From Calditrichaceae bacterium (GTDB lineage Bacteria; Calditrichota; Calditrichia; Calditrichales; Calditrichaceae), in NCBI GenBank assembly GCA_030622395.1, contig JAUXGF010000035.1, positions 1-11,271 on the forward strand: 11,271 nt of DNA. Direction: 5' to 3'. A program made the translations under genes and the position numbers. The notes under the pieces are model-generated. The model did not search any database and was not told the DNA's origin. It saw only the letters and a list, made by a program, of their open reading frames with translations. Position 1 is the stretch's first letter. The number at the start of each line of letters is the position of its first letter. Of the stretch, positions 9,122 through 11,271 are shown in pieces.

Positions 9122-9353
9122 GAATAGAGAGATAAGGAACATAGCTATACAAATTGATTAATGAAAATGATACTTGTTGGAGCGGAGCGTAAATCCAGAT
9201 TTTGCGGGGATGATCATGTTTCTTTGTCCAGTATCCAGCATCTATTTTAATAATACATTTCCCGATATGTCGGGGCTGGATAATAATATCTAATTTCATC
9301 CCTTCTCAGAGAATCCCAATGACCCGGATTTAACTTGACACGATGATGCTCTG
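9122..9353. other. Gene-free spacer with dispersed-repeat-like pieces
   Basis: It lies between the convergent peptidase and WG-repeat genes. No clear terminator is seen for either. It contains a small hairpin (CCCGA/TCGGG, 9261-9274) and a GTCCAGTATCCAGCATC segment (9227-9243) that looks like a low-complexity intergenic repeat. A 62-codon open frame here has no support. On the minus strand it is also where the missing remainder of the WG cassette's attC would be expected. Confidence 0.5.
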
Positions 9354-9363
9354 GTTAGGTTGC
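9353..9363 (-). repeat. Probable attC left-end (R'') remnant of the WG cassette
   Basis: On the minus strand, 12 bases after the WG-gene stop, is GCAACCTAACC, containing ACCTAAC, a match to the attC R'' consensus RYYYAAC. It is exactly complementary to GGTTAGGTTGC at the other end of the same cassette (10403 to 10393), as expected when a cassette's two ends formed one attC in its circular form. A GTTAAAT (9334-9328) matches GTTRRRY but lies too close (33 bases overall, no L-box stem) for a normal site, so the site appears truncated. Confidence 0.55.
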
Positions 9364-9374
9364 ACCACTTTTTA

Positions 9375-10355
9375 TTAATCAAAATTTAAATCATGTGTTG
9401 ATTTCCATACAAATACACCAGATTTATTTATATATCCCCAATTTTCCCCTGAGTATGCAATTGTCAAACCATTATTAAAATCACCGGCATCATCAAATAT
9501 TGGTTTAATTACAAAACAACCTTTTTTATTAATAAAGCCATACTTATTATCTATATTAACACTAGCTAACCCTTCAGAAAAATCATTTGCAAAATCGAAG
9601 GATGGTTCTATTACAATTTTACCGGTTTTATTAATGTAACCATATTTTCCTGATATTAAAACAGCAGCTAAACCATTACTAAAAGATGAAACGGATTGAT
9701 ATATGGGGTGTATTACTAAATTCCCAGATGTATCAATAAATCCATATTTATTTTTAATTTTCACACTGGCTAATCCTTCAGAAAAATCTTCTGCATAGTC
9801 AAATATTGGGTCAATTATAATTTCACCATCACTATTATAAAATCCATATTTTTTATTAATTTTTACCTTCCCACGTCCATCAATAAAATAAGAGACATAA
9901 TCATAAATTGGTTTCAGTATATATTCACCGGAATGGTTAATTGCACCATATCTATTTTTTATTCTGATAGACGCAATTCCTTCCGAAAACAATTCTGCAG
10001 AATTAAAAATAGGATCTATGACAAAACTATCCGTTGTATCAATGTAACCAAATATTGATCCATCAAGCGAGGCAGCGGCTAATCCTTCTGAAAAATTCCA
10101 AGCTTTAATAAATCTTGGTGGAATTACATAATTACCATTTATATCTAGATAACCAGCTTTTCCGTTTTTATAGACAACAGCCTTATCTTCAAAATACATT
10201 AAAACAAAATCAAATTCGGGATTAATTACAATTGAACCATTTTTATTAATAAATCCATATTTATCATTCAGTGAAATAACATATAAATTTGAATCTGAAA
10301 TCTGAGCAGAAACTATAAAAATAGTTAAAAATATATTAAGTAGAAAAGACTTCAT
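9375..10355 (-). CDS. Exported WG-repeat protein, probable integron cassette gene
   Basis: A 326-residue protein with a Sec signal peptide (likely cleavage after A17, VSA before Q18). The rest is built almost entirely of about nine WG/KWG-type repeats of roughly 34 residues, from Y33 to the C-terminus. Typical units read YGFIN..G..VI.P.FD, then a ..DFSEGLA.V linker; the last ends at WGYINKSGVFVW. Such repeats form beta-rich, probably binding, surfaces; no catalytic motif is visible and no function is assigned. The start is supported by AAGG about five bases before the ATG. The gene starts about 45 bases after an attC boundary and ends 14 bases before an R''-like heptamer, the tight packing of integron cassettes. 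Its base composition is more AT-rich than the ptb, maeB and antiporter genes. Export of the product from a cassette suggests a surface or periplasmic role, which is inference. Confidence 0.85.
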   Translation of the reverse strand: MKSFLLNIFLTIFIVSAQISDSNLYVISLNDKYGFINKNGSIVINPEFDFVLMYFEDKAVVYKNGKAGYLDINGNYVIPPRFIKAWNFSEGLAAASLDGSIFGYIDTTDSFVIDPIFNSAELFSEGIASIRIKNRYGAINHSGEYILKPIYDYVSYFIDGRGKVKINKKYGFYNSDGEIIIDPIFDYAEDFSEGLASVKIKNKYGFIDTSGNLVIHPIYQSVSSFSNGLAAVLISGKYGYINKTGKIVIEPSFDFANDFSEGLASVNIDNKYGFINKKGCFVIKPIFDDAGDFNNGLTIAYSGENWGYINKSGVFVWKSTHDLNFD

Positions 10356-10395: not shown

Positions 10396-10524
10396 ACCTA
10401 ACCTGCGATAACCCGCCTAAAACCAAGCGGCCAGTACCTTCACTAAACTAATTCATTTGAACGGTTTAACAAAATTGGAATTGGAAACTGCGTGTTTTGG
10501 GTCGGGTTGATTGTAATGTTAGGC
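10396..10524 (-). other. attC-like integron recombination site (129 bases)
   Basis: Read on the minus strand it starts with R'' GCCTAAC (10524-10518), a match to RYYYAAC, and ends with R' GTTAGGT (10402-10396), a match to GTTRRRY. These pair over six bases. Next inward are unpaired spacers of 9 and 7 bases. Then comes an L-box stem: plus-strand 10410-10423 pairs with 10494-10508 over 14 bp (one G-T pair) with a single extrahelical base, T10502. The remaining 70 bases form a variable terminal loop. R box, unpaired spacer, L box with extrahelical base and terminal loop are the defining parts of a folded attC. It begins 26 bases after the stop of the nuclease gene and is oriented with it. The crossover point would be between G10402 and T10401. 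Confidence 0.8.
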
Positions 10525-10550: not shown

Positions 10551-11105
10551 TTATGAGACACTACTACCTAACTCACCTTCAATTATATAAAAGATATCAT
10601 CATAATCAGAAATGTAGTTTTGATTTGTTAATGATTTTTCAGCTTCAATTAGCTCATAATTTTTATATTCATTTTCCCTTTGATAGAGCATATGTTTGAC
10701 TTGGTCATTTGGCATTACGCGGATAATCCAGATGCCTCTGGACTTTGCATAATTAAATGCTGACGATTGTAATGAATTTGTTGTAATAAACACACCTTTT
10801 ACATTTTGCCCAGCAATTTGATTAATTTTAGAAACAAATTCTTCCAACTCACTTACTTCGATTGGTTTAGAATAATCTTTACATTCAACTACTAATAATA
10901 ATGAATAATTCAGAGCATTAGGCAACCAAACTTCAATTGATATATCTATAATTATATTTTGATTTCTATCAATAGAGAAATATGCCTTTTTATAATAAAT
11001 TTTTGCATACTTTGAGTTAATTGGAAGCTCTTGTCTTTTAATTAACTTCGAAAGTAAATCCATTGCCCTACTTTCAAATTCAGAACCTTTTTTGGTTGTA
11101 TTCAT
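10551..11105 (-). CDS. Mrr-like PD-(D/E)XK nuclease, probable integron cassette gene
   Basis: A 184-residue protein with the restriction-endonuclease-like fold of the Mrr catalytic domain family. Visible elements are an N-terminal helix with KKGSEFE (5-11), D54 in IIIDISIE as the likely metal-binding aspartate, the E-x-K pair E74/K76 in VVECKDYSKPI, then a helix VSELEEFVSKINQIAG and a GVFITTNSLQSSAFNYAKSRGIWII segment (104-128), the usual Mrr tail of the fold. This family cuts DNA, often modified or foreign DNA. No DNA-binding winged-helix domain or methyltransferase accompanies it, so the target is unknown. The last 55 residues are unassigned. There is no strong ribosome site before the ATG. 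It is followed within 26 bases by an attC-like site in the same orientation, so it is read as cassette cargo. Confidence 0.8.
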   Translation of the reverse strand: MNTTKKGSEFESRAMDLLSKLIKRQELPINSKYAKIYYKKAYFSIDRNQNIIIDISIEVWLPNALNYSLLLVVECKDYSKPIEVSELEEFVSKINQIAGQNVKGVFITTNSLQSSAFNYAKSRGIWIIRVMPNDQVKHMLYQRENEYKNYELIEAEKSLTNQNYISDYDDIFYIIEGELGSSVS

Positions 11106-11271
11106 AATGATCTTATTCTTTTAGATATCATATTACTCAAGTTTCGCGGTTAATAATTAAAATATTTGCGACTAAAATAAGCCGTTTTTAACGTGTATAC
11201 TTGTAAATATTTCAATATAATCTAAGATTCTAAAGATATTTTCAAAAAAACGACTTTTGGGGATAGGCCCA
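11106..11271. other. Upstream region of the nuclease gene, nothing recognised
   Basis: AT-rich, with no convincing gene, promoter or attC R box. On the minus strand ACGTTAAAA (about 11194-11186) approaches GTTRRRY but lacks the final pyrimidine, and it does not complement the nuclease cassette's own R'' flank. The 5' cassette boundary therefore probably lies beyond the window. Confidence 0.4.

Follow-up and report, generated by a model that had tools for sequence, protein, structure and literature searches.

The stretch at 10396-10524 is very probably the attC site of an integron gene cassette. AttC sites are hairpins of folded DNA that bacteria use to exchange small gene cassettes, and the one described here is real and was correctly identified. 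It is an unexceptional example, a chromosomal cassette attC from a lineage that has received little study. The window, i.e. the whole stretch of DNA that was analysed, corresponds to contig C274 in its full length (11271 bp); the draft genome to which it belongs amounts to 3.05 Mb in 522 contigs and is 76.6% complete. The anatomy of the site, its kinship to sites located beside integrases in related genomes, the compensatory base pairing and the complementarity of cassette boundaries are all directly observed, and it is on these that our reading is founded (Table 1).

Table 1. Coordinates of the cassette-related features in the window
Feature	Position	Strand	Basis and remarks
Predicted remnant R'' of the WG cassette's attC, GCAACCTAACC	9353..9363	-	Exact 11-nt complement of GGTTAGGTTGC at the cassette start
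Cassette gene 2: 326-aa WG-repeat protein (PF14903, 8 stretches)	9375..10355	-	ORF and Pfam
attC site, 129 nt	10396..10524	-	Covariance models R1, R2 and R3; recombining bottom strand is +
R' box GTTAGGT (GTTRRRY)	10396..10402	-	Sequence; predicted crossover G10402/T10401
L' arm	10410..10424	-	Box scan and fold
Variable terminal structure (loop)	10425..10493	-	Falls within a 111-nt segment sharing 78% identity with the second site on contig C3
L'' arm with extrahelical A10502 (bottom strand: T)	10494..10508	-	Fold; both-side changes against relatives
R'' box GCCTAAC (RYYYAAC)	10518..10524	-	Sequence
Cassette gene 1: 184-aa protein, Mrr_cat restriction-endonuclease-like domain (PF04471)	10551..11105	-	ORF and Pfam
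Left part of a MITE-like repeat, terminal repeat ACTCAAGTTTCGC	11132..11271	+	Contig ends inside

Read on the minus strand, which is the top strand of the cassette, the site is arranged as R'' GCCTAAC, 9 bases, L'' AACCCG-A-CCCAAAAC, a long loop, L' GGTTTTAGG-CGGGTT, 7 bases and R' GTTAGGT. All the parts named in the original prediction (R boxes, unpaired spacer, L stem and terminal loop) are present, the boxes at their exact coordinates and in a bottom strand that folds. The R'' and R' boxes pair at six of seven positions by Watson–Crick rules and at one by G.T. The L stem comprises 13 base pairs, six in a first block and then 2 + 5 flanking a single C.A mismatch, instead of the 14 that had been predicted, while the single extrahelical base stands as described. 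The distances to the neighbouring genes, 26 nt from the Mrr-like ORF and 40 nt from the WG-repeat ORF, agree with those given before.

In the DNA fold of the bottom (+) strand, single-base bulges occur at T10502 and G10509. The complementary R''/R' ends, the L''/L' stem with extrahelical bases in one arm and the unpaired central spacer correspond to an attC, the definition of stem and spacer being taken from PMC2727003. This paper describes a conserved extrahelical G and T, 6 to 8 nt apart, in attC bottom strands; in the window site the T and G are 7 apart, a distance for which the counting direction may differ from that of the source.

As in any attC, the bottom strand (+ in the window), when extruded or single-stranded, would fold into a hairpin with two duplex blocks, R''/R' and L''/L', on either side of the unpaired spacer, and the two extrahelical bases would be recognised by the integron integrase. 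IntI would then cut and join between G10402 and T10401, releasing or integrating the cassette in circular form. In the window, the complete attC would close the Mrr-like nuclease cassette, with the WG-repeat cassette next to it. The cassettes were presumably moved by an IntI that is missing or unassembled in this genome, and the site is probably still usable; without an integrase of their own, they would depend on an external one for any movement.

An attC covariance search of the window had been proposed as a check of the site. We performed it with model R2, built from 11 sites of the closed relative G004, of G011 and of one viral contig, with none from the window's own genome; three of the 11 (two G004, one G011) were originally found by model R1, which includes the window site. 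With R2 the site scores 52.9 bits at a genome-wide E of 2.4e-12, covariance-model E-values being rough by the tool's own statement, and it is the best of six matches in the genome and the sole match in the window. Its scores of 97.1 bits with R1 and 103.6 bits with R3 are not independent, since both models include it.

Compensatory changes point in the same direction. In a MAFFT alignment of 10 sites, unfitted to structure and with eight sites from one array, both-side changes occur in 6 of 20 pairs and 97.0% of the cells are paired; on five measures, 0 to 3 of 500 shuffles were as high. In 20 sites aligned by the model, an alignment that leans towards structure because it is fitted to the model, 14 of the 20 pairs show both-side changes, 92.1% of the cells are paired and none of 500 shuffles reaches any measure, with slid controls at 32-43%.

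A blastn search of 192 genomes (own included) with the site found the own genome alone, with two matches, which is why covariance models were needed. No match was obtained among plasmids, and four chance-level matches (E 0.4) among phages. No Rfam family reached its gathering score (two chance matches, E 0.5 and 0.8), and no tRNA was found in the sequence. A DNA pattern derived from two own-genome copies matched two genome contigs (L065, L066), which proved on inspection to be chance matches, and one viral contig (L064).

Integron integrases above the curated cut-off were detected in 53 of 290 genomes, a set that includes the own genome, itself without one; in the same family, nine of the 14 other genomes carry such an integrase. 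Sites of the R1 type (E at most 0.01, stricter filters) occur in 19 of 60 genomes: the own genome, 9/14 of the family, 2/6 in the rest of the order, 6/19 in the rest of the class and 1/20 of the more distant genomes. When R3 was applied to 28 integrase or array stretches, sites were found in five (G004, G010, G016, G017 and, weakly at 26 bits, G005); the other 23, many of which are short or possibly hold other attC types, have no site at E 0.001.

The clearest example is G004, in which 15 sites over 126 bits lie from 4866559 to 4888781 in the same orientation as the integrase. The array begins about 740 nt past the integrase frame (4864876-4865817, one internal stop codon), and four stretches of G004 that were measured have a G+C content of 33 to 43%. 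The G004 sites resemble the window site in length (about 130 nt) and share its stem and the position of its extrahelical base; they differ in layout, a long array placed right after the integrase frame as opposed to sites on many short contigs in the own genome. We also observed that the integrase of this integron of about 20 sites (C1:4864876-4888781; L105, L070) points along the array, not away from it. In G016 (C1:906-11471, L081), nine minus-strand candidate sites lie beside a plus-strand integrase at 15530-16468, i.e. in a divergent layout.

In the own draft genome, searching with R3 up to an E of 0.05 revealed 23 candidate sites, the window site included, distributed over 21 contigs; eight of these were in the training set and have inflated R3 scores; R1 found nine sites, and R2 six. 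Twelve sites exceed 50 bits with R3, among them those on C84, C3 and C428 with poor R boxes, and several lower-scoring sites also have poor R boxes. C181 and C425, both short contigs, each carry a pair of sites within 4 kb of one another. Between genes on C208 that we take from their translations to be suhB/prs-like and cysQ-like lies a cassette whose boundary matches over 11 nt, and a second one may precede it. A gene near a site on C181 is presumably uvrC and one on C3 a patatin-like gene, both named by reading the translations, and the window attC lies near chromosomal-type genes for an NhaC antiporter and an M23 peptidase (Pfam). The cargo genes are accessory in character. Pfam identifies Mrr-like nuclease, WG-repeat, pYEATS and response-regulator proteins among them, and one further protein, without a Pfam match, we assume by reading to be PIN-like.

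No integron integrase over the cut-off was found in the own draft genome at its 76.6% completeness. The original prediction held that the array either continues past 11271 or lacks an integrase; this result fits the second option, and the array is not traceable past 11271 because the contig ends there, inside a repeat. The nearest tyrosine recombinase, on C137 (L032:2933-4474), was considered as the missing integrase and rejected, scoring 171 bits against a cut-off of 265. Its first 186 residues match the integron-integrase model, it lies about 140 bases from an attC candidate, and it is followed by what appears, on our reading, to be the start of an IS91-type transposase. Other partial matches to the integrase model are frames of 299 and 307 aa on C50 and C365, which we take for Xer-like, the tail of a 101-aa frame on C317, and a match on C14 that lies outside all listed frames of at least 40 aa.

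The most fitting description of the own draft is that of cassette clusters for which no integrase has been seen. As a refinement of the attC reading, we lean slightly towards a layout in which the sites represent dispersed single cassettes or small CALINs that arose by integration into secondary (attG-like) sites, or the remains of a broken large integron, and not one intact array. Such a layout is suggested by the 23 candidate sites on 21 contigs, several of them near ordinary-looking chromosomal genes: one integron has two chromosome borders, and here more than two seem to be present. The balance is kept close by the 522-contig draft, in which distances between contigs are unknown and cassette arrays tend to break the assembly, by several low-scoring sites with poor R boxes that may be false or decayed, and by the closed G004 genome, which holds most of its sites in one array.

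Copies on many contigs, among them the 78%-identical C3 copy with a decayed R'', could also be expected of a repeated hairpin, i.e. a terminator-like or MITE-like element resembling attC. The arrangement of neighbouring sites makes this very unlikely. When a cassette is circular, its first bases face the R'' box of its attC, and in arrays R' of one site should therefore be complementary to R'' of the next. In the G004 array (20 kb, 20 sites, weakest E 0.02), R' is complementary to the next R'' at all seven positions in 18 of 19 neighbours, and to its own R'' in 6 of 20 sites; among 13 informative neighbours, pairing with the next site was favoured in 12 and the opposite in none, and none of 10,000 permutations reached 18 (best 13). 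Over 30 neighbours at five loci, mean pairing was 5.1 of 7 positions with the own R'' against 6.5 with the next, one G004 site end that was one base off being counted as a miss. In the own genome both complete neighbour pairs follow the same rule, on C181 (11 nt) and C425 (7 nt). A hairpin repeat is not expected to be complementary to its next neighbour across the boundary G|TT more often than to itself, nor to adjoin integron integrases, as these sites do in some relatives.

The attC reading extends by the same rule to the WG gene. The 11-mer GCAACCTAACC, the mate of the R' boundary, starts 11 bases beyond the WG stop codon (9363-9353) and has a single copy on the minus strand of the window; it was present in one of 2000 random stretches of 1200 nt. 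This boundary mate makes the WG gene a cassette as well, the second of the window, whose attC is, judged from the sequence, reduced to the R'' box. A complete attC after the WG gene is absent: unfiltered R3 gave 4.8 bits on the minus strand (E 5.6) and 7.1 bits on the plus strand (E 1.2). With its attC cut to R'', the WG cassette is probably no longer excisable on its own. The cluster of attC sites postulated earlier is borne out by this boundary, by the 22 further candidate sites and by the rule-abiding two-site cassettes of C181 and C425. Just past the remnant, at 9157-9274, there are repeat pieces common to C164 (75-89% identity), and the attC of the WG cassette may have been lost through an insertion or deletion at this place.

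Folding energy alone proves little, since that of the bottom strand (-17.6 kcal/mol, folded as DNA; 11 of 200 shuffles equal or better) is modestly better than shuffles and that of the top strand (-12.4 kcal/mol; 85 of 200, and 121 of 200 as good when folded with flanks) is like them. An R/L-box scanner called the window site and made no call in 200 first-order random windows; a looser version called the window site on both strands. Over 20 sources the scanner found matches in three (window 1, C3 2, G004 array 5). The call on C3 (L030:4683-4778, both strands) is a plain inverted repeat that no model supports and was rejected as a false positive, which indicates that the scanner is imperfect. 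A chance inverted repeat between two genes, to which the shuffle-like energy of the top strand would be congenial, is next to impossible given the R2 score and the 200 empty random windows, and the earlier opinion that the combination is unlikely by chance was well founded.

The start of the Mrr cassette shows no R'' mate before the contig end, being hidden by the MITE-like repeat and the contig end itself. This repeat starts 26 bases before the Mrr gene and is 97% identical over 140 bases to C164:10856-10995; the C164 copy (L138:10856-11150) continues, as read by eye, to an inverted GCGAAACTTGAGT at about 11135-11147. Relatives of the Mrr gene were found in none of 116 other genomes at E 1e-8 and in none of the viral contigs. 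PADLOC gave weak matches to the Mrr-like protein (E 1e-4 to 7e-4) and none to the WG protein. The antiporter, conserved in 33 of 40 genomes (own included), was used to seek an empty site; in a tblastn comparison of nine window proteins with seven stretches from relatives (L161, with little beyond the gene, being omitted), the antiporter alone was found in each.

CALINs are clusters of attC sites that lack an integron integrase; defined in PMC9668308 as at least two attC sites less than 4 kb apart without intI, they are well known from that paper and from PMC12444791. The window shares with CALINs, and with the cassettes of sedentary chromosomal integrons, the anatomy of the attC, genes that run the same way and are each closed by an attC, the boundary complementarity and the lack of an integrase beside them on the contig. 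Unlike CALINs, it has one complete attC, the second being apparently cut to R''; against the two-site definition, the window thus offers one full attC and one remnant. The attG sites invoked above are the subject of Loot et al. 2024, as cited in PMC12444791. By description, not sequence, the window site also resembles the long VCR-type attC of vibrios, a different host lineage, which according to PMC2727003 have a variable terminal structure, extrahelical G and T bases 6 to 8 nt apart and use of the bottom strand.

The host had been called thinly described, and this holds in part. A literature search for Calditrichaeota with attC returned nothing, Calditrichota with integron or attC gave none among the matches listed, and Caldithrix abyssi with integron gave PMC10295459 alone; the word integron is absent from the main text of the Caldithrix abyssi genome paper, as far as the retrieved part of PMC5317091 goes. 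On the other side, integrases are common in the relatives (9/14), and Table 1 of PMC10295459 lists a CALIN for Caldithrix abyssi, which may be one of these relatives.

In an AT-rich, little-studied lineage, visual inspection of the raw sequence can reveal a well-formed attC, and a usable attC model (23 candidate sites, one draft genome) is now available for this lineage. What deserves following up is the scattering of the sites and, in the WG cassette, the remnant boundary. One can suggest, as a tentative and rather doubtful proposal, that this lineage keeps its cassettes, instead of in a single array, as many one- or two-cassette clusters distributed over the chromosome beside housekeeping genes through recurrent non-attI integration, and that the terminal attC sites erode to R'', as in the WG cassette, the captured genes becoming fixed chromosomal genes. 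The boundary-complementarity test spots cassettes even after loss of the attC, and would make the frequency of such permanent fixation directly testable.

The viral contig L064 (IMGVR_UViG_3300014656_000094) carries the site type of the window, with four candidate sites in 1.4 kb (400-457, 1081-1209, 1368-1450 and 1644-1773), and between successive sites 7, 5 and 6 of the 7 box positions are complementary. The frames between the sites presumably encode proteins resembling methyltransferases, as judged by reading. This contig probably represents a phage-borne cassette cluster. It is similar in this respect to the phage CALINs described in PMC9892861, from which the window differs by its ordinary chromosomal genes.

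A long inverted repeat (cacccctagcccctcccaag...cttgggaggggcaggggtggg) was also observed at 2845-2910 of the window, between acid-metabolism genes; similar pieces are present on C164 (79 and 93% identity), and it is perhaps a dispersed palindromic repeat.
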